Source: a virus
Length of the DNA: 26,991 bases
Direction: 5' to 3' (one strand)
Virus record (IMG/VR): IMGVR_UViG_3300005289_000081
Location: 1 to 26,991 of that record
A model generated the notes under the pieces. It did no database searches and had not been told where the DNA came from. It worked only from the letters and a program-made list of their open reading frames with translations. Positions 11,984 to 25,677 of this stretch are shown here, piece after piece. Positions within the stretch are counted from its first letter, which is position 1. Each line of letters opens with the position of its first letter. Both the position numbers and the translations under genes were made by a program.

Positions 11984-12330
11984 GATTGTCCTTTCATGGT
12001 GTTGAGAAGCGTTTGAAGACGGCGGAGCTTCGCCGCATCGAGGTGAAGGCTCTTGAGGATCAGGCGGACCATGCGCTGCGCGCCCAGCGCCTCGCGCAAT
12101 TCGCTGTCGCTCACCGGGCCACGGATGCCCGCGACATCGGCATGGGCAGCCAGATGGTCGAAGAAGCGGGCGGCTTCGGGCCGGACTTCCCCATTCGCAT
12201 CAAGAAACAGCGTGCGGGCGTCGGATTGCAGCCGCGTCATAGCGCCGATCGACGCGGCCACCCTAGCCATGCGCGCCTTAGCCTTGGCGGCATCGGCCGC
12301 GAGCGCGTTGATGTCCTGCTCAAGCGACAT
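11980..12330 (-). CDS. Small head-assembly-region protein, possibly Bbp19-like
   Basis: A 116-residue helical protein between portal and scaffold. The segment ARTLFLDANGEVRPEAARFFDHLAAHADV recalls small podovirus proteins of the Bbp19 type, which have an LF..P.G...L.DL-like core and occupy the same slot; the match is only suggestive. The N-terminus is a short helix rich in Ala and Lys. It overlaps the portal end by 11 bases, and its stop forms ATGA with the scaffold start, so it is probably translationally coupled. Function unknown; a role in head or connector assembly is inferred from position. Confidence 0.6.
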   Translation of the reverse strand: MSLEQDINALAADAAKAKARMARVAASIGAMTRLQSDARTLFLDANGEVRPEAARFFDHLAAHADVAGIRGPVSDSELREALGAQRMVRLILKSLHLDAAKLRRLQTLLNTMKGQS

Positions 12331-13978
12331 TGGCGGCCCCGGCCTGGCTCAAATCCTTGGCGGCCCGCGCGACTTCGGGCAGCGCCTCCAGCGCCTGCTG
12401 CGCCTGCGCCGCGTTGAACCGGGCTTCTTCCGCCGCTTCCTTCTCCGAATCCGTCGCCGCCCAACTCGCCGGCACTGCCTCGATTTCGGCGATGCCACGC
12501 ACCGCCTTGTCCAAAGGGAACTCGGTAAAGAAGATATCCAGCGCCTCGGGCTTGTACTGCGCCACCGCCGTGACCTTATCGAGCGTGCGGAAATAGCCGC
12601 TCGCCTGCTCCGACCGGATCATGCGGTTCAGCGGATTGTCGTACTTCATCGCCCGCGCGCCGCCCGCTTCGCGGACCTCGTGCGGCATGTCGTCGAACTC
12701 GCCCAGCTGCGCCATCAGGTCGACCTCGCGCATGTTCATGGGCGTGAACCATTCTTCTTCCTGGCGGCTCAATGGCTGGAGAAGGATGCCCTTTTCCTGC
12801 TTGCGGTCGTAGAGCTGGGCGTCGGTCACATGGCTTTTCAGGTCGTTCAGAACCGACAGCATGTGACGGAAGAACGCGCGATCGATGACCTTCTCGATAC
12901 GCTGCTGGATCATCAGCGCCGGGTTCATGTCGCCCACGTCGAACAGGCGCTGAACGGTCGGATTGCCGCGATGGTCGATCGCGCCATAGGTGATTTCGCG
13001 CGCGCCATAGATGATCTGCTGATCCTGCATGTCATCGGATGCGCCAAGCGGCGGCATCAGCGACATTTCCGCCCCCACCATCATATCCAGCATGATCGCC
13101 TGGGCCGATTTCACCGATGGCAGAACCTTCGTACCGGGGCCGCGACCGTAGGTTTCATTGGGCGAACGGTAAAAGCGCGAATAGGTGCTGGGATTGCTGT
13201 TCCATCCGCCCTGCTGGATATATTCCTTGTCCCCGATCGAAATGAAGCCGCCCATATAGGGCTTGCCGCGCCAGTCCATGCGATCATGGTCAACATTGTA
13301 ATTGACCTCGCACGTCCGCATGAACTCGAATTCGTTTGACCGTTTCTTGGGATCGGTCGCGGCCTCCAGCACCTTCGGCGCGCGCTGCAACTTTTCATCG
13401 CCGAAGAACTGGCGCGCCTGTTCGGCGGTCCACCGGAATTTCTTGTGGAAGCGGAAGGGGATGCCCTGCCAGTCCTGCTCGATCCACACGCCGCCGATAT
13501 GCTCGCTGCGATACTTCATGCCGATCGGCTGCCGGGTCATGGGGTCGAACCGCAGTTCCACGTCCATCGACTGGTTGCCGAAGCACATCAGGCTGGCGAT
13601 GCTTTCCGCTACCTGACCGCTCCAGCCCGACATGGGATCATTGCGCAGCGCGAACAGGCGCAGCGTCTTGCGCTCGAACCATTCGCGCACATGCTGGTAG
13701 CGTTTCAGTTCCTCGGGCGCTTGCAGCAGCTGCCACAGCGACCCGGCAGGCATAACGAAGCCCTGGAAAACGGACACGCCATCGTCCAGCGCATCTTGCC
13801 CATATTCGTCAATGACCTGATTGGACCGATCCTCGCCCTCCGCGCGGCGGGTATCCCATGGGAAATCCGCCTGGCGGGGAAGGAACAGCTCAGCGGCTTC
13901 CTGCCACCTGCTGTCAAAATTGGAACGCTTGGTCTCCAATTCGCCCTGCTTGGCGATCGCGGCGGCCGCGTCGAGCAT
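12320..13978 (-). CDS. Portal / head-tail connector protein (T7 gp8-like)
   Basis: A 552-residue protein matching the T7-type head-tail connector family in length and motifs: an early RWQEAAELFLPRQADF helix, then FVMPAGSLWQLL (74-85), YGRGPGTKVLPSVKSAQAIM (277-296), the most conserved family segment, and a C-terminal Ala/Glu-rich helical tail. The protein forms the ring through which DNA is packaged and ejected and docks the terminase. The start at 13978 has GGGGGGAAGGA upstream. It is followed by the Bbp19-like gene and scaffold, the usual order. Confidence 0.9.
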   Translation of the reverse strand: MLDAAAAIAKQGELETKRSNFDSRWQEAAELFLPRQADFPWDTRRAEGEDRSNQVIDEYGQDALDDGVSVFQGFVMPAGSLWQLLQAPEELKRYQHVREWFERKTLRLFALRNDPMSGWSGQVAESIASLMCFGNQSMDVELRFDPMTRQPIGMKYRSEHIGGVWIEQDWQGIPFRFHKKFRWTAEQARQFFGDEKLQRAPKVLEAATDPKKRSNEFEFMRTCEVNYNVDHDRMDWRGKPYMGGFISIGDKEYIQQGGWNSNPSTYSRFYRSPNETYGRGPGTKVLPSVKSAQAIMLDMMVGAEMSLMPPLGASDDMQDQQIIYGAREITYGAIDHRGNPTVQRLFDVGDMNPALMIQQRIEKVIDRAFFRHMLSVLNDLKSHVTDAQLYDRKQEKGILLQPLSRQEEEWFTPMNMREVDLMAQLGEFDDMPHEVREAGGARAMKYDNPLNRMIRSEQASGYFRTLDKVTAVAQYKPEALDIFFTEFPLDKAVRGIAEIEAVPASWAATDSEKEAAEEARFNAAQAQQALEALPEVARAAKDLSQAGAANVA

Positions 13979-14883: not shown

Positions 14884-15123
14884 TCACGCGCCAAGCGAAG
14901 TCTTGGCACCGGTGGAAGATTCCGCCCCGCCGACGCCCATCAACATGTCCGCGGCCGGGGTGCGTCGACGGGACAGGACATCGCGCTTCTGCGCCTCCTC
15001 CGCCGCCTGGTTGACAGTTGGCGTCGGCACGGCCTTCGGCATCTTGGGCTTGCTGAGTGCCTGCGCAGCCGACGCCCCCGCACCAATCACCGCCGCACCA
15101 ATCAAAACCGCCGCTGTGCTCAT
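14884..15123 (-). CDS. gp7.3-like tail-assembly/adsorption protein (79 aa)
   Basis: A short protein with an N-terminal Ala/Gly hydrophobic stretch (AAVLIGAAVIGAGASAAQAL), a Lys/Pro linker, then RDVLSRRRTPAADMLMGVGG and a Gly/Ser tail. This resembles the small podovirus proteins with an RRR...TILTG..G-type motif near T7 gp7.3, which help tail assembly and adsorption. Its ATG overlaps the terminase large subunit stop (ATGA). The resemblance is moderate and the exact function is inferred. Confidence 0.6.
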   Translation of the reverse strand: MSTAAVLIGAAVIGAGASAAQALSKPKMPKAVPTPTVNQAAEEAQKRDVLSRRRTPAADMLMGVGGAESSTGAKTSLGA

Positions 15124-16724
15124 CGCCGTGCCCCCGCAAAGCCAGTATGTTTGACATTGGTGGCGACCTTCTTCGCCGCCGCCTTCCGATCCATGTCATC
15201 CAGCACGCTGCCGCGCTTGTTCAGACCCGCGACCAGATACTGGAGCGCGTCCTGAACATGGCTGAAATCGTTTTTCAGAGGCTCATCTTTCCAGAGCCCC
15301 GTGCCGTTGGAACGGCTTACCCGGGTGATGACATAACCATTGTTGAACCCGCGCCGCAGATAACGGCAGGCAGGGCTGATAATCATGCCCGGACGGCCCG
15401 CGACATTGTTGACGAGCAGATCGCGGACGATCTCCAGACGCCCCTGTGGCCCCTTGAGGCGGTTCCCCTTCACCGGCGCCGGCTTGACCTTCATCCCGAA
15501 CGCCAGCGAGAAATCGTCCAGCCACGAAGGGTCCAGTTCCGTGCCCTCATAATCCGTCGCCGGATCTGACCAGGCGACATTGATGCGGGCGTTGGGGAAC
15601 CGCTCATTGACGAACTCGCGGCACGCTTTTCCGAATGCGGTTGGCCCCATGGACTGGAGCTGTTTGTCGTCATCATCATTGAAGATAACCAGCTCATCGA
15701 CGATGCGGATTTGCCCGGTGGGCATTTTCTGGCCGAACACCGCAGCCGGGGTCGCGCCGCCGTCGATCGCCATGCACAGCTCGATGCCCTCGGCCGCGCG
15801 CAATTCGCTGACGGCGGTGTGGAAGGCATCGATGAACTCGGGAAAAACAGGCTGACCGTTCCGAACCGCGCCGAATTCATTGTCGACGAAGCGGCGCACG
15901 TCATTGTCGTTGGCACCGATCATCAGGCGATCATAGTAACCCGGCGGAAGGTTCGCCAAATTCTCGGCGTTGGGATCGCGAGCGCCAGGCTGGCGATGGA
16001 AGGCCACCCCGAAATTTGCGCCATAGAGCTTGCGGAACTCATCCAGCTGCTTTTCGCTTAGGCCAAGGTTCTTCTCGACCAGCAGCTCATAGGTCCAGTT
16101 GTCGACATCGGGCGCGTTCATGTCGAGGAAGATGCCCGACCATGCGCAGCCGCCATCCTTCGCCTTGGGATAGCGGCCGACGCGCGGCAGCCCGAATTTC
16201 AGGACCGCGCGATGCAGCGTGTCGCCCTCGTTTAGCCACAGCCATGTCAGCTGCATGCCCTTGAAGACCTTTTCCGGCTTGTTTTCCTCGCCGAGCGCGC
16301 GCCAGAGGATTTCAATCTCCAGCTTGCCATAGCCGGGTATGTCCAACTTCAACTTCGACACCATGTCGTCGCCGTTGAAGTTGTCCTTTGTCTTCGGGAA
16401 CCAGCTGAAAAAATCGTCCATGACGTTGGCCTTCAGCTGGGCATAGGTTTCACGGATCACGCATCCGCGCGATCGCCGCACCCCATCCTTGCCCGGCTTC
16501 TGCCACATCGTGATCCAGATGATTTTCTGGAAACAGCTGGTCGTTTTCGCGGAGCCATAAGGCCCCATAATCCCGCTCAGGAACATCTTGTCCTGGACGA
16601 ACCGGGATGCCACCGGCCCGACGAAATTCATGGTCGCGGCGCGGGCTTCCCCTTCCGCGTCGTCATCGCGGTCGATGGTCGGGATGCTGTCGTAGGAGGG
16701 GACCGCCGCTGCGTTACTCGCCAT
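15120..16724 (-). CDS. terL: Terminase large subunit
   Basis: A 534-residue packaging motor. The ATPase domain has a Walker A variant GPYGSAKTT (54-62) and a Walker B-like LTWLWLNEGDT. The RNase H-like nuclease domain shows the acidic pattern CMAIDGG, VAWSDPATD and DFSHVQDALQYL. The start at 16724 is chosen because GGAGG lies 7 bases upstream; an in-frame ATG at 16748 has no ribosome site. It overlaps the terminase small gene end by 11 bases. It would cut concatemeric DNA and drive it into the prohead through the portal. Identification is strong. Confidence 0.92.
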   Translation of the reverse strand: MASNAAAVPSYDSIPTIDRDDDAEGEARAATMNFVGPVASRFVQDKMFLSGIMGPYGSAKTTSCFQKIIWITMWQKPGKDGVRRSRGCVIRETYAQLKANVMDDFFSWFPKTKDNFNGDDMVSKLKLDIPGYGKLEIEILWRALGEENKPEKVFKGMQLTWLWLNEGDTLHRAVLKFGLPRVGRYPKAKDGGCAWSGIFLDMNAPDVDNWTYELLVEKNLGLSEKQLDEFRKLYGANFGVAFHRQPGARDPNAENLANLPPGYYDRLMIGANDNDVRRFVDNEFGAVRNGQPVFPEFIDAFHTAVSELRAAEGIELCMAIDGGATPAAVFGQKMPTGQIRIVDELVIFNDDDDKQLQSMGPTAFGKACREFVNERFPNARINVAWSDPATDYEGTELDPSWLDDFSLAFGMKVKPAPVKGNRLKGPQGRLEIVRDLLVNNVAGRPGMIISPACRYLRRGFNNGYVITRVSRSNGTGLWKDEPLKNDFSHVQDALQYLVAGLNKRGSVLDDMDRKAAAKKVATNVKHTGFAGARR

Positions 16725-17424
16725 CGCCGCCCTCCGGGACTGGCTCATAATCCGCCTCTTCCGGCGCCCCGATCATCCGCATATTCTCGAAGTCGATCGC
16801 GTCCATGCCCTTTTGGGTCAGCGCGTCCTCCAGCTGCCCCATCGGCACGTCCATCGGCGCGTTGATGCCGGGGATGATGATGAAGGCATCCGTCTTGCCA
16901 GCCACTTCCACCGTGAGCGGCTGCCGCCCGTGGACATAGGTTTGCATGTCGCGCAGCACGCCGACCTGCATCTGGGCGACATCGAGGGCGCTGATCTTTT
17001 TTCGCGACATGTAGCGGATAAGCTTGTCCGCCAGCTTCCCCGCCATCTTCGCGGACAGCGCGTCCCCTAGCCGGTCGATGATCCGCTCGATGCGATCCAG
17101 TTCCTCGCCGTCCCCGTCATCGTCGGCCGCACGAATGACCTGCACCAGCATAGGCAGCGGCATCGATGCCATGTTGCCCAGCGCATCCGCCGGATCGCCG
17201 TATTTCTGGACAAACCATTGCGCGAATTTCTTGTTGCGCTTGTTGAGCGCGTTCGGCGGGCGTCCGCGGCGGACCTCGCGCAGGTGCTGATGCGGGATAT
17301 TGCCGTTCGCGTCTGCCAACATGCTCAGCTGCACAGCGTCGGGAAACGCTCCGCCTAGATCCGCGTGGCTGATGCCGGCGGCGTCGGCGACCGCCTTTTC
17401 CATGCTGCTAGGTTCGGTTGACAT
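16714..17424 (-). CDS. terS: Terminase small subunit (probable)
   Basis: A 236-residue protein directly before terL, the usual slot for the DNA-recognition subunit. An AT-hook-like RRGRPPNALNKR (about residues 52-63) could bind DNA, and it is followed by helical segments (FAQWFVQKYGDPADALGNMAS) typical of terminase-type helix-turn-helix proteins. The middle is helical (DRIERIIDRLGDALSAKMAGKLADKLIRYM) and suits oligomerisation. The C-terminus is acidic. The family is not certain from sequence alone, but context is strong. Confidence 0.75.
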   Translation of the reverse strand: MSTEPSSMEKAVADAAGISHADLGGAFPDAVQLSMLADANGNIPHQHLREVRRGRPPNALNKRNKKFAQWFVQKYGDPADALGNMASMPLPMLVQVIRAADDDGDGEELDRIERIIDRLGDALSAKMAGKLADKLIRYMSRKKISALDVAQMQVGVLRDMQTYVHGRQPLTVEVAGKTDAFIIIPGINAPMDVPMGQLEDALTQKGMDAIDFENMRMIGAPEEADYEPVPEGGDGE

Positions 17425-18118
17425 GCCCGAAGCCCCCGCCTAGCCTCGCACCACTTCCACCCTGCGCCAGGACAGCCGCAATTGCACCCTGACCCGTATC
17501 GCAGCGTAGCCCCGTCGCGCTTTCGCGCCGACTGAAACTCGCGCGCGGGTTCCCCCGCGCCCCCGACCCCATTGGCCCCCGGCTAACTTCGCCCATCCGG
17601 CGATGCCCGGCTTTCAGGAAGGGCGGCAACGATCGGCCGCCTCGATCCGAAAGATCGGCCTCTGGCTGAGCCGCGCCTGCGCGACACGGGTGGCACCAGA
17701 CGAAGACGGGGCGGTGGGGGGGCGCGCCCCCCACCTGCCCACGATGCCGCCAAGCGGCACCCCTGCCCTGCGCATGCGACCCGCAGGCGTGGTGCAAATT
17801 GGTGATTATCCGAGGATCGACCCAAAAGGCCGACATATCAGCAGCTTGCATAGAGCCATGCGACGGAAGCCATGCGACGGCGCAGAATCCGCCCACGAAA
17901 AACGGCCGAAATCCGCCAATTTCGGCAAGAGCCTCGACCGGCAGCGCCGAGGCCTCATCGACCCAGATCGGCACGGCCTGGCCGACCTGCCGCCGCAAAT
18001 TTTTCCGGCCGACCCCACTCCGCCCCGCGACCAACACCCGTCCAGCGACAGAGCGCGCATAAACGCCCCCTATTTTATTCGAGGCGACGGCGCGGCGAGG
18101 ATCGAAGGCAACGACCAT
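17408..18118 (-). CDS. Uncertain ORF upstream of the terminase
   Basis: An open frame of 236 codons on the late strand. For it: the ATG at 18118 lies 9 bases after the -10 of the operator-controlled late promoter, like the leaderless-type starts of the two XRE genes. The first half reads plausibly (QVGQAVPIWVDEASALPVEA), and the middle has HHACGSHA and WCHPC, a possible zinc-binding pair. Against it: the C-terminal half is low-complexity Arg/Gly, the frame crosses a run of seven G residues at a strong hairpin, and spurious long frames are common in such GC-rich DNA. The region may instead be an untranslated leader or packaging site. Confidence 0.35.
   Translation of the reverse strand: MVVAFDPRRAVASNKIGGVYARSVAGRVLVAGRSGVGRKNLRRQVGQAVPIWVDEASALPVEALAEIGGFRPFFVGGFCAVAWLPSHGSMQAADMSAFWVDPRIITNLHHACGSHAQGRGAAWRHRGQVGGAPPHRPVFVWCHPCRAGAAQPEADLSDRGGRSLPPFLKAGHRRMGEVSRGPMGSGARGNPRASFSRRESATGLRCDTGQGAIAAVLAQGGSGARLGGGFGHVNRT
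17713..17735. repeat. Strong GC hairpin/palindrome upstream of the terminase
   Basis: GGTGGGGGG (17713-17721) and CCCCCCACC (17727-17735) are perfect complements around GCGCG, which includes a GGCGCGCC core. A smaller 7-bp hairpin lies at 17543-17560 (GCGCGGG/CCCGCGC, loop TTCC). Both are upstream of the terminase genes, a common place for pac or cos signals. No terminator T run follows on either strand. Confidence 0.5.
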
Positions 18119-18126
18119 GGATCAGA

Positions 18127-18156
18127 GACTTAGCATATTGCTGAAATCAGCGACAA
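18127..18156 (-). promoter_or_regulatory. Leftward late promoter
   Basis: On the minus strand TTGTCG (18156-18151), an 18-base spacer and TAAGTC (18132-18127). It closely resembles the promoter of the leftward XRE gene (TTGTCA, 18 bases, TAATTG), and both share TGATTTCAGC in the spacer. It would drive the terminase and downstream virion genes. It is overlapped by an operator. Confidence 0.5.
18129..18145. promoter_or_regulatory. Operator O3 at the late promoter
   Basis: CTTAGC-ATATT-GCTGAA, a member of the seven-site family. It covers the -10 and spacer of the leftward late promoter, so occupancy should silence virion genes in the lysogen. Confidence 0.65.
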
Positions 18157-18168
18157 GCCCTCCCCTCA

Positions 18169-18407
18169 TGTTCCATTGTTCCAGCTTCTGAAAGACAAAA
18201 TGGAACATAGTTAAGGCCCGGTTTACTTAGCTCGCGGCGGGATGGTGGCGCATGTTCCAATGTTCCACGGATCGCGCATGTCTGCGCATGCGCGCGCGGG
18301 CCACGCACGCACGGGCCGACCAGCCCCGGCCGGAACAGCGGATCATGACCTTAACCGATTGGGTTAGCTTGTTCTTTTTATGGAACAGACATTCCGCGCA
18401 TGGAACA
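18169..18407. repeat. TGTTCCA/TGGAACA repeat cluster
   Basis: Exact heptamers TGTTCCA occur at 18169, 18177, 18253 and 18261. Inverted copies TGGAACA occur at 18201, 18381 and 18401, and a near copy CGGAACA at 18331. The forward copies form two tandem pairs with an 8-base period; the last two inverted copies are 20 bases apart. No convincing gene overlaps the cluster. An alternating purine-pyrimidine tract (18275-18315) lies within it. The arrangement is iteron-like and may be a replication origin, a packaging signal or a regulator-binding array. Elsewhere I noticed only one isolated copy (13198). Confidence 0.65.
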
Positions 18408-18410
18408 CTC

Positions 18411-18459
18411 CCCCGACCCATCGGCGGCATCCAGCCTGATCGCTGCCTATGGGTCGGGG
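18411..18459. repeat. Perfect 11-bp inverted repeat with 27-base loop
   Basis: CCCCGACCCAT (18411-18421) pairs with ATGGGTCGGGG (18449-18459). It lies just after the heptamer cluster and about 90 bases before a plus-strand terminator. It could be part of an origin, or the first stem of a small RNA that ends at that terminator. Confidence 0.6.
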
Positions 18460-18550
18460 CCACATGAGAGCTAAGGAAATGGGTGCGGGCGGGAGACGCC
18501 AAAGGAGCGCGGACGCACCGCGACGGCTGCGCCGCCGCTGTCCGCGCGAA

Positions 18551-18584
18551 GAATGAAGACGTTGAAACGCCTTCATTCTTTTTT
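18551..18584 (+). terminator. Rho-independent terminator
   Basis: GAATGAAG (18551-18558) and CTTCATTC (18571-18578) form an 8-bp stem with a 12-base loop, followed by a T run (18577-18584, interrupted by one C). It works on the plus strand only. No plus-strand gene is convincing upstream of it, so it either insulates the early promoter that starts right after it or ends an unrecognised small RNA. Confidence 0.75.
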
Positions 18585-18585
18585 G

Positions 18586-18614
18586 TTGACTTAAGCTATT
18601 TGCTGAAATTATTG
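18586..18614 (+). promoter_or_regulatory. Rightward early promoter
   Basis: TTGACT (18586-18591), a 17-base spacer and TTATTG (18609-18614). It is directed at the early gene set starting at 18664. The operator at 18591-18607 lies inside the spacer, and the terminator stem ends just upstream. Confidence 0.65.
18591..18607. promoter_or_regulatory. Operator O4 in the early promoter
   Basis: TTAAGC-TATTT-GCTGAA, close to the family consensus. It fits within the promoter spacer, so binding should block early transcription. Confidence 0.7.
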
Positions 18615-18663: not shown

Positions 18664-18843
18664 ATGCAACGCGCAATCATAGACTGCGGACTTGAGACCT
18701 TAGACGTCCTGATCCCCACCGGCACCGACCTTGATGATGCTTTCGACGCCTACGACGCCGAAAGCGGCGAGATGGTGCGCATCAATGGCTGGATGCTCGA
18801 TGCTGACGCGATCAGCTTTGATCGGGCCGGGAGCATCTACTGA
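18664..18843 (+). CDS. Small acidic early protein (59 aa)
   Basis: A 59-residue protein starting MQRAIIDCGLETLDV and rich in Asp, with alternating strand-like segments (LDVLIPTGTD, MVRINGWMLDADAISF). The ribosome site AAAAGGAAAA lies at suitable distance. It is the first gene after the operator-controlled early promoter, and its TGA overlaps the next ATG (TGATG). It has no recognised family. Position and acidity suggest an early host-interaction or regulatory protein, but this is inference. Codon bias supports coding. Confidence 0.7.
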   Translation: MQRAIIDCGLETLDVLIPTGTDLDDAFDAYDAESGEMVRINGWMLDADAISFDRAGSIY

Positions 18844-19049
18844 TGAAGGCCGACCTATTCGGGCCCGCGCCCGCTCGCCGAACGCCGCGAAAGCTTATGC
18901 ATGCAATAGATAGCGGCAACTTCCCGGACGGGAAGGATGCAGCCCATTTCCAGTGCAAAGCATGCGGCCACGACAGTGGTTGGGTTTACGCGACCCGCGC
19001 CGAGGCTCGACGCGGCATTCCATGCCCTCACTGCAACGGCGGAGCCTGA
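18843..19049 (+). CDS. Small zinc-ribbon-like protein (68 aa)
   Basis: A 68-residue protein with two CxxC knuckles, CKACG (Cys38, Cys41) and CPHC (Cys61, Cys64), spaced as in a zinc ribbon that could bind nucleic acid or protein. The N-terminus MKADLFGPAP contains a DLF element similar to beta-clamp-binding peptides, although the usual Gln is Lys here. Its start overlaps the upstream stop. It is the second gene of the early operon. No precise family is recognised. Confidence 0.75.
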   Translation: MKADLFGPAPARRTPRKLMHAIDSGNFPDGKDAAHFQCKACGHDSGWVYATRAEARRGIPCPHCNGGA

Positions 19050-19102
19050 CCGCATCGCACGAGGGTCGGGGAGCCAAAAGCCTCCGACCTTCCACGATGC
19101 GG
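19050..19102 (+). other. Stem-loop element in the early operon
   Basis: Outer arms CCGCATCG (19050-19057) and CGATGCGG (19095-19102) are perfect complements. An inner 8-bp stem pairs 19064-19071 with 19082-19089 (one G-T pair). The two stems stack around small internal loops and fill most of the gap between two early genes, starting one base after the stop. No T run follows, so it is more likely an mRNA structure or processing site than a terminator. Confidence 0.55.
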
Positions 19103-19133
19103 CCAAGCATCACCCTTCGCCAAAGGACAAGCT

Positions 19134-19400
19134 ATGATCGACAACACTAGTCAGCTGAGCAGCTGCACCGCATGGTGCCGGGAATGCGGGCACCGCATCG
19201 ACGGCGATATCCACTATGACGCCGCCGCCTTCGGCTTCCATCCGGATTGCCTGCAGGGCGAGCCGGTCGCCGCCTCGACCCAGCGCGATCTGCAATGGAT
19301 CAGTCTCCGCCTCGCATCGCCCATGCGCGCGATCGATGCGCAGCAAGGCGCGGTCGACCTGCCGCTGTTCGGAGCAGCAGCACAGGGGAACCTCCTATGA
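19134..19400 (+). CDS. Small protein with CxxC...HxxC zinc-ligand pattern (88 aa)
   Basis: An 88-residue protein. Cys15, Cys18, His36 and Cys39 (CRECGHRIDGDIHYD... then FHPDC) form a likely treble-clef type zinc site. The C-terminus has AVDLPLF (73-79), close to the hexapeptide form of the beta-clamp-binding motif with Ala in place of Gln. The ribosome site AAAGGA lies 8 bases upstream. The stop overlaps the next ATG (ATGA). Function unknown; the combination suggests a small adaptor or regulator, which is inference. Confidence 0.72.
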   Translation: MIDNTSQLSSCTAWCRECGHRIDGDIHYDAAAFGFHPDCLQGEPVAASTQRDLQWISLRLASPMRAIDAQQGAVDLPLFGAAAQGNLL

Positions 19401-20314
19401 TCCAGCTGGACCTGTTCGCGCCGCCGTCCCCGCCACCCGTCATTGCGGCAAAACCGTCACGGCCTGCTCATGCCCTCGCATTCGAGCAGCAGCGCGCCAC
19501 GGTGGATGGGTCCACCGCTCGCGCCGAATCGGCCGGTCGGATCGAACGCCTCACATGGGGCGAAGGCGCAAAGGATGGCCCCATGCGCTGGGGCAAGGGC
19601 GGCTACCGGTTAGAGATTTACGAGGACGGCGGCCAGTGGTTCGCCCGCGAAGAACTGGCGATGCACAACGGCGGATCGAGCGGTCCCTTCTGGCCTGTCC
19701 GTGACGTGCGCGGACGGACCAGCCTCGACACGCGCGAGGCCGTCATCCTCTTCCACATGCGAAAGCTGCTCAAGAGCGCGGCGACCAGCATGGCGCGCCC
19801 ATATGGCGACGAGGAAGCCCGCGCCAAGCAATTCGCCAAACTGGCGGCATGGTCGATCGCGCAGTGCCCCACGCTGATCTATGGCGTCGACCTCGCCGCA
19901 GAGTTCGCCACCTTGTGCGAGGCGGAAAAGCTACGCGAGGAACGTCGCTGCATCGCGCTCGATGCCGTCCACGATCTAGCCAAGCGCGTGGACGCGGTTA
20001 TGAAATCGATCGACGTCGACGCCTACAGCGGCAGCTGGGATGCGGGCCTCATCCATAACAAGGCCGTGAAGGACTGGCCCGGCAAGGGCGCTGATCCTGT
20101 CGGGCACGCAAAGGCATGGCCAGCGGAATGGGCGATCAGCGGCCACGCCCCGGCGGCGTTGAGCGTCACCATCTACCCGCGTGTAGGCCAGGCCGAAAGC
20201 CGGTCGGTCCGCGCAGCCGTCGGCGCCCTCACGATCGCGCTCGCCGAGCCGATCCTAATAGCCGACGAAGACGCACCCTATCCCCATGGCAACTGGAAGT
20301 GGGAGGATCAGTAA
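19397..20314 (+). CDS. Early protein with N-terminal QLDLF clamp-like motif (305 aa)
   Basis: A 305-residue protein starting MIQLDLFAPPSPPP. QLDLF (residues 3-7) is the consensus bacterial beta-clamp-binding pentapeptide, followed by a flexible Pro-rich linker. The first half of the body has strand-like motifs (GKGGYRLEIYEDGGQWFAREEL) and the second half is helical (AWSIAQCPTLIYGVDLAAEFATLCEAEKLREERRC), ending in GNWKWEDQ. The start at 19397 is preferred to upstream in-frame codons because it overlaps the preceding stop (ATGA). I do not recognise the family. A role in recruiting or blocking the host sliding clamp is testable but not proven. Confidence 0.72.
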   Translation: MIQLDLFAPPSPPPVIAAKPSRPAHALAFEQQRATVDGSTARAESAGRIERLTWGEGAKDGPMRWGKGGYRLEIYEDGGQWFAREELAMHNGGSSGPFWPVRDVRGRTSLDTREAVILFHMRKLLKSAATSMARPYGDEEARAKQFAKLAAWSIAQCPTLIYGVDLAAEFATLCEAEKLREERRCIALDAVHDLAKRVDAVMKSIDVDAYSGSWDAGLIHNKAVKDWPGKGADPVGHAKAWPAEWAISGHAPAALSVTIYPRVGQAESRSVRAAVGALTIALAEPILIADEDAPYPHGNWKWEDQ

Positions 20315-20584
20315 ATGCAGATCGACATGGGATTTATCGACCTCCCCGCGCCGCAGAGCATCGGCACCGACGGCAAGCGCGCATGGTTCTGGCAGGACGG
20401 CAGCTGGCAGGTTGGCCGGGCATGGAATGTCCGCCCCGATGGCACAATAAGCGGCATGTGCCGCGACTATGGGCCATGGGGCTTCAACTATGGCGGCAGA
20501 TCGCCGCTGGAGACGCATGGCTGCTGGAAGCCGCACGAGGTCCGCTGGAAGAAGCCGACCGCACAATATGAGCGGCCGGAATAG
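20315..20584 (+). CDS. Hypothetical early protein (89 aa)
   Basis: An 89-residue protein beginning MQIDMGFIDLPAP. It is rich in Trp, Gly and Tyr with repeated short aromatic beta-like motifs (AWFWQDGSWQVGRAWNV, YGPWGFNYGG). The ATG directly follows the upstream stop, with GGAGG 8 bases before. No family is recognised. The aromatic pattern suggests a compact beta protein; any function would be a guess. It belongs to the rightward early set. Confidence 0.65.
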   Translation: MQIDMGFIDLPAPQSIGTDGKRAWFWQDGSWQVGRAWNVRPDGTISGMCRDYGPWGFNYGGRSPLETHGCWKPHEVRWKKPTAQYERPE

Positions 20585-20586
20585 CC

Positions 20587-20889
20587 ATGATCCTGCATGC
20601 GACTATAGGTGAACAGACCTTCGAAATCGACGCACGGCACAGTGGATCGCTTGGCTGGCGATGGTGGCGGCGATCTATGCTGGACTATGGGGTTCAGGAC
20701 GAGCGCGTTGTTCCTTTGGGCCACACCGCTGACGGCCGCCTGCTGATAGCCCATGAAATGGACGGATTGCTCGCCGTCGTCTCGCCCCACATGTTGTTCC
20801 CGATCCTCGATGATAGCGCGCAGACCGGAGCATCGGCAGCGGCTGCGTCGTTCATCAACCAACTGCTCGAGCAGCCACGACTGTTATGA
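20587..20889 (+). CDS. Hypothetical early protein (100 aa)
   Basis: A 100-residue protein starting 2 bases after the previous stop. The N-terminal half has strand-like sequence (MILHATIGEQTFEIDA) and a basic aromatic patch (SLGWRWWRRSMLDYG). The middle has hydrophobic helical stretches (GLLAVVSPHMLFPIL), and an Ala-rich helix ends in LLEQPRLL. The ribosome site is weak (GGAA), so coupling to the upstream gene is likely. It is the last gene of the rightward set and meets a convergent gene 2 bases later. Function unknown. Confidence 0.6.
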   Translation: MILHATIGEQTFEIDARHSGSLGWRWWRRSMLDYGVQDERVVPLGHTADGRLLIAHEMDGLLAVVSPHMLFPILDDSAQTGASAAAASFINQLLEQPRLL

Positions 20890-20891
20890 CC

Positions 20892-21212
20892 CTACCTTGC
20901 CCGCGCTTCCAGCACAGCCGCAACAGCCTTGCGCCGCACACCCTCGACATAAGCGTTGTTCAGCTGATCGACCCCGCGCCGCCATTGCACCAGTTGCTGC
21001 GCGTTCAACGATGGATCGGCCGAAGCCATCGACATGTCGCGCATCCGGCGCTCCCGATCGCCGCAATGCGCCCGCGCGCCCTCGGCGACCGTATCGGCGC
21101 TATCGCCCCCGTTAGACCATTTTCGGGCCGTGGAGAGAACACAGGTCCGATAATCCGCCGCCGCGCCCTGCAACGACGCGGAAGCCTGCAACAGCAGCAA
21201 AGTAAAGATCAT
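20892..21212 (-). CDS. Exported small protein candidate (106 aa), possible moron
   Basis: A 106-residue protein with a short hydrophobic N-terminus (MIFTLLLLQASASLQGAAA) resembling a signal peptide. The mature part has two Cys (24 and 50) that could form a disulfide (DYRTCVLSTARKW and RAHCGDRERR). It lies alone on the minus strand between plus-strand genes, with a GGGGTGG site before the ATG. An isolated gene in opposite orientation is typical of a moron expressed in the lysogen, but no strong promoter was found. The family looks like small host periplasmic proteins; exact function unknown. Confidence 0.6.
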   Translation of the reverse strand: MIFTLLLLQASASLQGAAADYRTCVLSTARKWSNGGDSADTVAEGARAHCGDRERRMRDMSMASADPSLNAQQLVQWRRGVDQLNNAYVEGVRRKAVAAVLEARAR

Positions 21213-21314
21213 AATCCACCCCGTAATTCAGCCCGCCGTAAGGTAAGCTCGGTTAAAAGCCCGGAAACTAATGCCTTGCCCCCGTGGGGACAGAGCAACG
21301 GGGTATTATCAAAA

Positions 21315-21491
21315 ATGGATAACGAATTGCACCGCGCACTTGTGGCACCGGCGATCAAGGGACTTGCGCAGCTGCTGGAGGCAGCCGATCCGCGCGAGGA
21401 ACTGCCCGTGCGCGGCCTGGCGGCATTGACGCGGCTAATCGCGGAGGCGGCGGACCGGCAGGAGCTTGACGCCCTCGCCGAGCGGCCCTAG
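21315..21491 (+). CDS. Small helical protein (58 aa)
   Basis: A 58-residue, almost entirely helical, Ala/Leu/Glu-rich protein (KGLAQLLEAADPREELPVRG). Third codon positions are GC-rich, which supports coding. The ATG at 21315 is preferred over upstream in-frame starts because TATTAT (a -10-like hexamer) ends 5 bases before it, so the mRNA could be leaderless; a GGGG lies 11 bases upstream as an alternative weak ribosome site. No good -35 is seen. A terminator follows at 21530. No family is recognised. Confidence 0.6.
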   Translation: MDNELHRALVAPAIKGLAQLLEAADPREELPVRGLAALTRLIAEAADRQELDALAERP

Positions 21492-21529
21492 CCCTCCTTC
21501 ATACGAGTTCTTTTGGCGAAGAAGGGAAC

Positions 21530-21562
21530 GGCCTCGCATCCAATGGGTGCGGGGCCTTTCTC
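21530..21562 (+). terminator. Rho-independent terminator
   Basis: Stem arms 21530-21541 and 21545-21556 form a 12-bp hairpin (with G-T pairs) around an AAT loop, followed by TTTCTC. It ends the plus-strand 58-residue gene and lies just before the convergent end of the leftward replication operon at 21568. Confidence 0.7.
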
Positions 21563-21567
21563 ATGAC

Positions 21568-21768
21568 CTATTGCAGCCGCGCCTTCATGTCGCGCAGGTC
21601 GGACTGTGCCCACACGCGCATCATCACTGCATCTTCCTCGCAGATGCCCAGCCAGCGCGCGATGATGTCGATCGGCATGTGCGCCATCCACCACGCGCCC
21701 GGCGCATTATCCTCCAGCTGCTCCGCGCTTAGTCGCGACGGGCGCGGCTTCTCGGGGTCGAATATCAT
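21568..21768 (-). CDS. Small protein at the end of the replication operon (66 aa)
   Basis: A 66-residue protein. The C-terminal half contains a helix-turn-helix-like segment IDIIARWLGICEEDAVMMRVWA, and the N-terminus is charged and Pro-rich (DPEKPRPSRLSAEQLED). The ATG at 21768 overlaps the stop of the 28-residue ORF (ATGA); an in-frame TTG at 21774 is less likely. There is no clear ribosome site of its own, so coupling is expected. Function unknown; a small DNA-binding protein is possible. Confidence 0.6.
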   Translation of the reverse strand: MIFDPEKPRPSRLSAEQLEDNAPGAWWMAHMPIDIIARWLGICEEDAVMMRVWAQSDLRDMKARLQ

Positions 21769-21851
21769 CGACAACGCTGCGCGCCGACGATCATCACCGC
21801 CAGCGACAGGTCGAGGCTGACCAGCAGGTAGACGGCGATGCAGTAGCTCAT
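21765..21851 (-). CDS. 28-residue single-span membrane microprotein
   Basis: A very short frame, with ATG at 21851 overlapping the helicase stop and TGA overlapping the next ATG, both as ATGA. The peptide MSYCIAVYLLVSLDLSLAVM continues to IVGAQRCR. Residues 3-24 are one hydrophobic span with one Asp, and the end is positively charged (RCR), as expected for a small inner-membrane peptide with its C-terminus inside. It fills the gap exactly between two genes of the replication operon. A membrane anchor, a toxin-like peptide or a holin-like peptide are all possible; none is shown. Confidence 0.55.
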   Translation of the reverse strand: MSYCIAVYLLVSLDLSLAVMIVGAQRCR

Positions 21852-23875
21852 CGCGCGTCCAGCTGCGCCAGCTCGGCCGTCGCGCCCGCCCTTGCGGCCG
21901 TCAGGTCGACAATCTCCGACAGCGGCACCAGCGTCGACCAGATGCCCGGCCCGTCATAGCGGACCTTCACATTGCCCGGCACCGATCCCTCGATCATGCG
22001 CAGCGCCTGCGGCCATTCGCCATTCTTCCATGTGGTGCCTGCGAATATCTGGCGCAGCGCCTCGCTATTTTTGTTGGCCACGGCCAGATACATGACCTCT
22101 TCGGCATTGTCGCGCAGGGCCGCGATCGCGCCCCATTTGACCGTCTCGCCGCCGTCCGCCGCCTTCTCGACCTTCCGCGTGGCGTACATCAGCTGCATGC
22201 CGTGCGTGCGCAGCTTGTCGCGCGCCTCGCGTCCGCCCTGACCTTCCTTGCAGATTTCGATGAAGGCCCGCTCGATCCAGCGCGCCACCGTCTCCTGATG
22301 CTTGCCAGCAGCAGCCGACAGGCGGAACTGCGTCAACCGGCCCAGGCACCGCTCGCTCGTGCTTTCCGCCTCCGCTTCCGCGATCGACAGCATCGGTCCC
22401 AGCGCCTCGACGAAGCGCCGGCAGCGCGTCGTCGCTTCCGGGTCCGGTTCGTTCGGGTCGCCCATGTCCAGCTGGACGATCGGCGCGCTGTCGAACAGCA
22501 TCAGGTCGGCCAGCGCCAATATCTCGCCATAGGTATTCTGCCCGCGCGGATCGACGCGATGGCGCAGCAACTCCGCCTGATAGGCCGCCAGCGTGGCAGG
22601 GTAGCGTGGCCACTGGTCGACCAGTCGCCGGGTCAGGGCCAGCCCCACATCGTTGAGCGTGCCCTTGAGCCCCCATTTCTTCTCCATGATCGCCTCGATG
22701 CCGCCGACATCGATCGCGGCCGTGTTCGGCGGGAACTTGGATAGCGTCAGGATCGCCATGCGGTTGCGGTCCTGCTGCTCCAGCTCGTGGTGCATGATGG
22801 AGGAAAAGAGGAAACAGCTATAGGCGACGAAATCGACCGCCTTATGGTCGCTGGAGCCGCGCCCCTTCTTCGCGCCCGAACTGGCGAGACGCGCCAGCGC
22901 GATGATCTTCTTGACAAATCCGCCGCCATCCTCGCTCGGCTCCGGTTCGTCGTAGAGGACGGGCAGGCGCTGATCCATCAGCGACTGTGAAATCCACGCT
23001 TCGGACGGGTCCTGGCTCTCCAGCGCCCATTCGACCAGCAGCCGGGAAATCAGCCCCTGCAACGTCGACTTGCCCGCGCCGGATGGACCGACCAGCCACA
23101 TATGCGGACGCCACCCGATCGCGCCGCACAGCTTGGCGCAGCCCAGCCAGCCCAGCACCAACAGCGCATCGAGCGAAACCCGATCCTTGCCGTTCGCATC
23201 GAGCGACACGGTGCGCCCATCCTTCCAGTTCCAGCCCGCAAGGATGCGCAACACGCCGCGCCCGGCATCGACCTCCGCCCCCTTGCCGGGCCTAGGCAGT
23301 CCCGGCGCGGTAGGAAAGATATGCGGTCCGATCAGGCCGGGATCGCTCCAGATCGTCTTGGCCGCCTGCCCGCGCGCATTCTTGCGCCCGCCGATTAGGA
23401 TGGCATCGCCGCAATGCAGGATGATTTCGCCATTGGCCCCGCGGTGCGATCCACGCCCGCGCACCTTGCCCGCCGGGTCGAACAGCCCGCGCCGCGCGCT
23501 TTCATGGATCAGCGCCCGCTGCACCTTGGTCTGGTTAAAACCGTCCTTCACCATCTGGGGCGGGTTCTTGTCGCTATTCCCGCCGATATTCTTCCATTGC
23601 GGGAAACTGTCATCCAGCCAGAGCATTTCCGTGCCGAACAGCAGCATCAGCTCGCCCTTGCGGAACTCGCTGCCCATGGTGCGCAGCTGGCCGCGATAGT
23701 CGAGGAAATAGAGCTTGTCGCTTAGGTGGCCGAGCGGCTGCACCGGACAATCCGGCGGCAGCTCGACCATTTCCATGCTGTCGCCGCGTGAACGGCGATC
23801 GGGCTCGCGCAGATCTGGCGCGTCCTGCGCGCCGTCGACAATCGCGCCGATGTCATCGACGGGGGAACCGGTCAT
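21848..23875 (-). CDS. Phage replicative helicase, SF3/AAA+-like
   Basis: A 675-residue ATPase. Walker A GPSGAGKST is at residues 263-271, Walker B LPVLYDEPE at 304-312 (Asp309, Glu310), then FSSI (357-360) and the basic QDRNRMAIL (368-376), a likely arginine-finger region. The layout of a ~240-residue N-terminal domain plus a single AAA+ core fits phage helicases that act with a separate Toprim primase, which lies three genes upstream in the same operon. The start at 23875 has AGGGGGG before it. It would unwind phage DNA at the fork. The superfamily assignment is probable rather than certain. Confidence 0.75.
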   Translation of the reverse strand: MTGSPVDDIGAIVDGAQDAPDLREPDRRSRGDSMEMVELPPDCPVQPLGHLSDKLYFLDYRGQLRTMGSEFRKGELMLLFGTEMLWLDDSFPQWKNIGGNSDKNPPQMVKDGFNQTKVQRALIHESARRGLFDPAGKVRGRGSHRGANGEIILHCGDAILIGGRKNARGQAAKTIWSDPGLIGPHIFPTAPGLPRPGKGAEVDAGRGVLRILAGWNWKDGRTVSLDANGKDRVSLDALLVLGWLGCAKLCGAIGWRPHMWLVGPSGAGKSTLQGLISRLLVEWALESQDPSEAWISQSLMDQRLPVLYDEPEPSEDGGGFVKKIIALARLASSGAKKGRGSSDHKAVDFVAYSCFLFSSIMHHELEQQDRNRMAILTLSKFPPNTAAIDVGGIEAIMEKKWGLKGTLNDVGLALTRRLVDQWPRYPATLAAYQAELLRHRVDPRGQNTYGEILALADLMLFDSAPIVQLDMGDPNEPDPEATTRCRRFVEALGPMLSIAEAEAESTSERCLGRLTQFRLSAAAGKHQETVARWIERAFIEICKEGQGGREARDKLRTHGMQLMYATRKVEKAADGGETVKWGAIAALRDNAEEVMYLAVANKNSEALRQIFAGTTWKNGEWPQALRMIEGSVPGNVKVRYDGPGIWSTLVPLSEIVDLTAARAGATAELAQLDAR

Positions 23876-24230: not shown

Positions 24231-24529
24231 CAGGCGGGCTTCTCGATATTGATCTTTGGGCCCCAGAAGAAATCAAGTGGCCATTGAGTGATAGGGATAC
24301 CGAATACCTGCACAGAGAAGTGCTCGGGATCATCAATGTCGCCAAAAGGATCGTTTTCGTTGACCTCAACTATTTCCCATCCACCGGAGCACCAGCTTGA
24401 CTTGCCGTCATCATCCGTTTCTGGCGTCAGCTTTACGCCGCCGGGAACATCCTGGTGATAGAGTATTCCGCCGCTGGGCGTCTTGAGTTTCGCCCAATAG
24501 TAACTGGGTTCTGTAGGCATCTGGCTCAT
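24230..24529 (-). CDS. Hypothetical protein in replication operon (99 aa)
   Basis: A 99-residue protein starting MSQMPTEPSYYWAKLKTPSG. It is rich in short beta-like aromatic motifs (GILYHQDVPGGVKL, WCSGGWEIVEV, FFWGPKINIEK) with acidic loops (NENDPFGDIDDPE). The start at 24529 overlaps the primase stop (ATGA), so longer upstream readings in the same frame are shadows of the primase. Base composition is slightly less GC-rich than the neighbours, hinting at a later insertion. No family recognised; a beta-rich accessory protein is all that can be said. Confidence 0.6.
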   Translation of the reverse strand: MSQMPTEPSYYWAKLKTPSGGILYHQDVPGGVKLTPETDDDGKSSWCSGGWEIVEVNENDPFGDIDDPEHFSVQVFGIPITQWPLDFFWGPKINIEKPA

Positions 24530-25677
24530 TCGGCCCGTTCCTTTCCGGTGAGCATGTCGTTGAAGTCTTTGAATTGCTGCGGCGGGAAGATGGTGCGGAC
24601 AGTCCGCCCCCGCGCCTGATGCTCGGCGATCGCGCGCTCCAGCGCCTCGATCGGCTCCGGCTTCATGTCGTTCTGCCCGATGATGACCAGCGCGCCGATC
24701 TGTTCGGGCAGTTCGACCGCCCCCATCTTGCTGAGCGACACGCCCGCGATCACACGCAGCTGCGGCCGCACGAACGCGATCGACAGCCCATCCTCGATCC
24801 CTTCGGACATATAGACATCGGTGCCCGCCGGTATGTTGCGCAGCGGGTGGCGATGATCGCCCTTCCACAGCGGAATATGGCCGCCGATCGACGGGCCCAG
24901 CGTCAGCTTCGCATCGTTCAGCGAGGCCTTGCGAACCGGCCCGGCTTTGCCCTCCGATACGTCCAGATAGGTCCGGTGGACGCCGCGCAGGCCGCCATCC
25001 AGCCCCATGACGCAGGCCACCATGGTCGGGATTTTCGCGCGATCGCGACCATCGCGCTCCGCCAATTCCGTGCACCACGCCGCCGGATGATAGCGCAGGC
25101 TGCCCGGCACCTTCCCCAGCTGGGCAAGGTCGATGCCACGCCCCGCCAGATAGCCGAAAGCCGGGGTGCGGCCATCAGGACCGGCAATCCGCGCGCTGCC
25201 ATTCCACAGCCGCTGCGCGCTCGACCGCTTGGCCTCGCGTTCCTCTGCCTCGGCAATCTCCGCTTCCTGCCGCCGCTTGTCCGATTCCGCGCGCGATCGC
25301 GCAAAATCCTGCTCGCTCATCCGGTCGACGCCGACCAGGCGCTTGGCCTCGGCGAAACCCTTGGCGAAATCACCCTTCCATTCGCGCTCGACATAGAGCG
25401 ACAGGATATCGCCACCGGCGCCGGGCTGTCCCCGCGCCAAGCCGAAATCATTCCATGATCCCTGCTTGCTGCCCGATAGATTGACCTTGAGCGAATAGCT
25501 CCCGGTCTTTTCGTCCCGGATATTGGACGTTTCCCAGAAATTGCCCGACTTGCGCCCGTTCGGCAGCAGCATCCGGGCGAACTCGGCCGCGCGGGCGTTC
25601 ATCCGCTCGCGCACCTCATCCACCTCGGCGCGCATCCGGCGCTGGCGTTCCGCATCGCTGTCCCCGCCCCCGCGCAT
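24526..25677 (-). CDS. Toprim-domain DNA primase
   Basis: A 383-residue primase of the phage Toprim type. Residues 72-95 (GSWNDFGLARGQPGAGGDILSLY) match the phage primase N-terminal region. The Toprim domain spans about 285-375: catalytic Glu292 in MSEGIEDGLS, the DxD region GQND (334-337) and KDFND (370-374). The first Asp of the usual DxD pair is Gln335, so metal binding may differ. No zinc-finger Cys cluster is visible. The gene follows the XRE regulator by 2 bases and is coupled to the 99-residue gene. It would make primers for the helicase further down the operon. Confidence 0.78.
   Translation of the reverse strand: MRGGGDSDAERQRRMRAEVDEVRERMNARAAEFARMLLPNGRKSGNFWETSNIRDEKTGSYSLKVNLSGSKQGSWNDFGLARGQPGAGGDILSLYVEREWKGDFAKGFAEAKRLVGVDRMSEQDFARSRAESDKRRQEAEIAEAEEREAKRSSAQRLWNGSARIAGPDGRTPAFGYLAGRGIDLAQLGKVPGSLRYHPAAWCTELAERDGRDRAKIPTMVACVMGLDGGLRGVHRTYLDVSEGKAGPVRKASLNDAKLTLGPSIGGHIPLWKGDHRHPLRNIPAGTDVYMSEGIEDGLSIAFVRPQLRVIAGVSLSKMGAVELPEQIGALVIIGQNDMKPEPIEALERAIAEHQARGRTVRTIFPPQQFKDFNDMLTGKERAE

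Follow-up and report, generated by a model that had tools for sequence, protein, structure and literature searches.

The intergenic heptamer array of the window, that is, of the 26,991-base viral contig analysed here over its full length, is very probably a phage replication origin with mirror-symmetric iterons, as judged from sequence comparison. The preliminary description had proposed an origin or a packaging site. The origin part of that proposal stands, because it is supported by a layout shared among about 80 relatives, by arrays on plasmids, one of them terminase-free according to a gene table that may be incomplete, by recombinants in which the motif goes with the helicase, and by the known location of SaPI-type origins. 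The packaging part was not borne out, as the motif is not tracked by TerS columns and an array occurs where no packaging genes are listed.

Architecture of the Array and Its Surroundings in the Window

All seven exact copies of TGTTCCA/TGGAACA and the one near copy reported in the preliminary description were found in place within 18169–18407, the exact copies at 18169+, 18177+, 18201−, 18253+, 18261+, 18381− and 18401− and the near copy, TGTTCCG, at 18331−. A genome-wide count yielded 9 exact copies in the window against 1.7 expected and a maximum of 5 in 100 shuffles, and the top 7-mer count per ~250 bp was 7 in the window versus 3–5 in 200 dinucleotide shuffles. Listing of the positions confirmed the two direct pairs with 8-bp period together with inverted copies. 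The alternating purine-pyrimidine tract described beside the heptamers was recovered as the strongest in the window, and an inverted repeat flanks the array at 18411–18428/18442–18459. The earlier reading had captured half of the design, the whole array being a dyad about the alternating tract (Table 1). An exact IHF consensus was not seen in the window's 18208–18252 spacer. Alpha-type LexA boxes, which have N7 spacing, were rejected as an assignment, the spacing in the array being GTTC-N4-GTTC.

Table 1. Features of the array and of the associated replication genes in the window.
Feature	Position	Strand
Outer block, terminase side: TGTTCCA direct pair 18169+, 18177+ (8-bp period) and inverted copy 18201−	18169..18207	.
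Spacer of 45 bp between outer and inner sites	18208..18252	.
Inner direct pair TGTTCCA-A-TGTTCCA, directed at the centre	18253..18267	+
Dyad centre, alternating purine-pyrimidine tract	18273..18313	.
Degenerate inner site TGTTCCG, helicase side	18331..18337	−
IHF-like near match GATCATGACCTTA, two mismatches to WATCARNNNNTTR	18341..18353	+
Outer block, helicase side: two inverted copies 20 bp apart	18381..18407	−
Inverted repeat CCCCGACCC...GGGTCGGGG flanking the putative origin	18411..18459	.
Hexameric helicase, 675 aa, phrog_21086, proposed initiator	21848..23875	−
TOPRIM primase, 383 aa; Toprim_3, DUF7146, phrog_510; helicase partner	24526..25677	−

The late genes of the window run leftward and include TerL (15120–16748), a gene in the TerS position (16714–17424) and a podovirus-type head-tail connector (12320–13978), while a repressor pair lies close to the right end. 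An ORF at 17408–18118 was considered as a gene beside the array and rejected, with neither relatives nor a family. On the other side, at 18549–18586, a 15-bp hairpin (AAGAATGAAGACGTT/AACGCCTTCATTCTT) with a plus-strand T-run after it resembles an intrinsic terminator, and the stretch 18664–21840 holds mostly rightward genes inserted between helicase and array, which are absent where the helicase and array of relatives touch.

Conservation of Position and Layout in Relatives

TerL relatives were gathered from viral and bacterial contigs, and the region upstream of TerL was subjected to a motif-free search for clustered 7-mers. An array occupies the corresponding place in ~80 relatives, without exception between primase-helicase and terminase genes, and the motif varies from one to the next (TGTTCCG, TGTTCCCA, AGTTCCCAA, ACTTCCCAA, CGGTTCCA, GGTTGCA, GGTTAGC, GCGTTACGC, CGGTTTGG, TGTTACG, TGTCCCG, GGTTCTG, CGTTACC and others). 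Conservation in related phages, which the preliminary description had suggested looking for, thus holds for position and layout and not for the heptamer itself, the motif of which drifts. Close cultured relatives were not found; the TerL matches obtained in this respect were distant ones.

Strict detection recovered an array in 59 of 82 helicase-bearing loci, made up of 80 helicase relatives from a second scan and two fecal phage scaffolds. Motif refinement revealed dyad layouts in 81 loci, for example +−−−++/−−+++−, which is its own reverse complement; a dozen loci with failed or mislocked refinement (L005, L007, L009, L017, L020, L023, L082, L170, L175, L179, L181 and L241) were left out by hand. 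The layout is fixed and consists of outer sites, an AT-rich spacer with IHF-like sites, an inner pair with 8/9-bp period, the centre and the mirror image of these. Averaged over the 81 loci, site density peaks 30–50 and 80–130 bp either side of the centre, AT content climbs to 0.55–0.65 between these peaks, and base alternation reaches 0.85 at the centre. The alternating tract, 40–70 bp long in relatives, lies between the inner pairs in nearly all arrays and is often the strongest of the whole locus. Matches to the exact IHF consensus numbered 35 in the 81 arrays versus 0.7 expected, nearly all of them 60–90 bp from the dyad centre in the AT-rich spacers. A GGGTC/GGGG motif like that of the 18411–18459 repeat lay within 140 bp of 26 of the 81 arrays, whereas downstream control stretches showed none.

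Ten Sphingomonadales loci fetched later had the array behind the helicase in eight cases, and one of the other two ends at the contig end. Three TerL relatives (L121, L123 and L151) carry a similar array without the phrog_21086 helicase; in L121 a DnaB-type helicase precedes it, and these arrays are perhaps bound by another initiator. The Bordetella/Burkholderia TerL relatives L033, L035 and L037 showed no such array. At L131:2090–2380 and L079:3650–3910, other 8-mers form very dense clusters upstream of TerL (20 copies of CCCATGCG and 21 of CAGCGTGA).

In the relatives the elements follow one another as repressor, TOPRIM primase, helicase, array, TerS, TerL, an order borne out by the 80 helicase relatives and the two fecal phage scaffolds, and in most relatives the helicase and TerS genes flanking the array share one direction. 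The array follows directly behind the helicase (15–300 bp) in many relatives and in the plasmids and lies 3.4 kb away in the window. Across relatives, gene insertions have spread the helicase-to-array distance over 15 to 6400 bp; upon such insertion the array stays near TerS, not near the helicase, and the array-to-TerS distance is bimodal at about 0–150 or 520–760 bp. Since these distances alone would favour packaging, further tests were made.

Many relatives with the 520–760 bp gap share a second conserved element, located in the window at 17854–17926. On the minus strand it comprises a hairpin with a T-run (GCCGAAATTGGCGGATTTCGGC CGTTTTT) and then a direct pair with 14-bp spacing, whose motif drifts among relatives (TGTTGGAA, TGTCGGAA, GTCGCATGG and so on) and reads AGCCATGCGACGG at 17854 and 17868 in the window. 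This element is a candidate terminator plus late-promoter or packaging site, and as such a better candidate for packaging or late control than the heptamer array.

Plasmids Carrying Helicase and Array

Relatives of the helicase with 26–29% identity were found on small Arsenophonus nasoniae plasmids and on an Atlantibacter plasmid. The linear plasmid paNv_CH14 (8,190 bp) encodes the helicase, an HTH protein, a nuclease and a protelomerase; its gene table, which may be incomplete, lists no terminase or capsid gene. The array of paNv_CH14 begins 62 bp past the helicase stop and is internal (3174–3457), away from the ends. Right behind the helicase of paPv15, the array reads ++++ (12-bp period), 44 bp, −− (8 bp), 87 bp, ++ (8 bp), 59 bp, −−−− (12 bp), which is the design of the phage arrays in an AT-rich host. 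In paNv_CAN17 and Atlantibacter pLH84-a-B the array likewise lies behind the helicase. These natural plasmids with helicase and array are suggestive of autonomous replication. Besides helicase and array of this type, the Arsenophonus nasoniae plasmids L243, L244 and L248 carry further genes: a protelomerase is encoded on paNv_CH14 and paNv_CAN17, and an orphan small terminase subunit on paNv_CAN17 and paPv15. On two Phaeobacter/Leisingera phage-plasmids a distant helicase was present and no array was found; plasmid GC skew was uninformative.

Linkage of Motif and Helicase

Two phages, L221 and L220, have TerS proteins 50–60% identical to those of a group with GGTTCTG iterons. Their helicases, in contrast, closely resemble those of phages whose iterons read GTTCCCAA and CGTTACC, and their own iterons, CTTCCCAA and TGTTACC, fall into the CTTCCCA and GTTACC groups. 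Judging from these sequences, the motif follows the helicase in natural recombinants.

When residue-motif correlation was controlled for the identity of four proteins, the top correlates among their 1382 columns were helicase K637 for motif base +4 and C155 for base +5, and no TerS column was among the top correlates of these two bases. Of 37 loci with C at +4, 29 have K637, as against 4 of the 25 others, and this rule held in all six of the later Sphingomonadales loci that had a clear motif. Pseudo-traits taken from unrelated columns gave 0.475 at the 95th percentile, compared with 0.485 and 0.407 here; by this control, common ancestry also gives rise to correlations of this kind. Conserved windows in the N-terminal part of TerL correlated with the motif as highly as helicase windows. 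Whole-protein identity tests did not separate the helicase from primase or TerL, with only TerS falling out; the covariation is therefore called suggestive, and the correlation between motif and protein is modest.

Structure of the Helicase

The AF2 model of the helicase had a mean pLDDT of 90.9. Comparison with SCCmec Cch (5dgk) gave Z 16.5 over residues 37–663, with 431 residues aligned at an rmsd of 6.0, and that with SaPI5 Rep (7om0) gave Z 14.3; MCM was matched too. By model comparison, the fold is Rep/Cch/D5/SF3-MCM-like. The helicase profile revealed no sequence-level match to SaPI5 Rep or Cch among PDB sequences. K637 sits in the C-terminal domain, which alone gave weak fold matches (Foldseek E 0.3 or worse, VIA-align Z 4.7 or less); the few that were listed are mostly DNA-binding proteins, SaPI5 Rep included.

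Alternative Functions of the Array

If the array were a pac or cos site at which the small terminase, TerS, binds to start packaging, this would account for the tight array-to-TerS distance against the loose one to the helicase, and lambda cosB likewise combines terminase sites with IHF. We consider this very unlikely, given that plasmid paNv_CH14 carries an array with no terminase in its possibly incomplete gene table, that on other plasmids the array lies behind the helicase, that TerS columns do not track the motif, and that TerS-similar phages (L220 and L221) carry other motifs. The array might instead be the operator of a phage transcription factor over divergent late and early promoters, as it sits in the window between leftward late genes and rightward small genes, and inverted sites with IHF are common in operators. 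However, only one promoter-like match was found, at chance level, and 8–16 sites about a conserved alternating centre are unlike a simple operator. Moreover, the helicase and TerS genes are co-directional in most relatives, and there is therefore no divergent promoter pair to control; this function, too, is highly improbable.

Arm sites, IHF and an alternating centre also bring to mind attP and N15-type telomere sites, and a protelomerase is encoded by two Arsenophonus plasmids. A role in site-specific recombination, either as attP, with its arm-type sites and IHF, or as a protelomerase target (telRL/tos), is nevertheless extremely unlikely: in chromosomal prophages the array is internal and phage genes flank it on either side, its centre is not a perfect palindrome, and in linear paNv_CH14 it lies away from the ends.

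Proposed Mechanism and Implications

As a replication origin, the array would be bound at its iterons by the C-terminal domain of the helicase. IHF would bend each arm and thereby bring outer and inner sites together, and the oppositely oriented halves might load two helicase hexamers, which could melt the centre or the AT-rich arms. The adjacent TOPRIM primase would then prime both strands for bidirectional replication. It is possible, if tentative, that the arrays constitute a phage origin class of their own. The helicase would then assemble or melt the DNA not at an AT-rich element but at a GC-rich core of alternating purines and pyrimidines, possibly Z-forming, with arms folded by IHF on either side; the specificity of iterons and initiator would diversify rapidly, and close relatives would thereby keep origins that are separate and do not cross-react. 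A literature search, with subscription papers largely outside reach, yielded no description of this origin.

A function is thereby proposed for the unannotated helicase family phrog_21086 ("unknown function") and for a noncoding element common to plasmids and to a large group of alphaproteobacterial podophages, hardly any of which are in culture. Since the layout is fixed and the iteron drifts, the set would constitute a natural experiment on origin recognition and opening by hexameric initiator helicases, and it would predict origins and compatibility groups from sequence alone.

Comparison with Known Origins

The iteron plasmid origins of R6K, pSC101 and RK2 have multiple iterons, AT-rich stretches and, in some cases, IHF, as here; they differ in having iterons in tandem instead of a dyad and in being started by a Rep protein that has no helicase activity.

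The likeness to the SaPI/SCCmec Cch/Cch2 systems lies in short opposed iterons downstream of the gene of a self-loading hexameric helicase, at varying distance in the present loci, and in the helicase fold. In those systems the origin lies immediately behind the initiator gene, and SaPI Rep and Cch2 recognise it via their C-terminal domain (PMC7581432); SaPI origins are described as opposed repeats on which two head-to-head hexamers load, as in SV40 (PMC9894130). Two iteron sets opposed about a centre were also found in the 81 loci and the plasmids. Unlike the SaPI/SCC origins, the present arrays belong to Gram-negative phages and are built as a long dyad, in which outer and inner iterons make up separate sets and which also has IHF sites and a centre of GC-rich alternating sequence.

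Phage P4 combines a primase-helicase with similar iterons, its type 1 repeat GGTGAACA being equal to TGTTCACC, and its crr lies directly behind alpha, with 9-bp spaced pairs in opposite orientations; the array detector recovered P4 crr as a positive control. Unlike the present arrays, P4 has two separated cis sites (ori and crr) and no single dyad; one array was found in the window and in most loci within the fetched stretches. P4 alpha is a fused primase and helicase and scored 1.9 bits with the helicase profile and only 19 bits with the primase profile, so that by sequence the present proteins do not belong to the alpha family.

The SV40 origin differs in its helicase family, in being compact and without IHF, and in belonging to a eukaryotic virus. 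The SV40 large T antigen core origin shares with the array the opposed short sites, which in SV40 load two head-to-head hexamers of an SF3-type helicase (PMC9894130). By analogy, the array would work like the SaPI, P4 and SV40 origins, to which it is likened without being assigned as a strict member of any.
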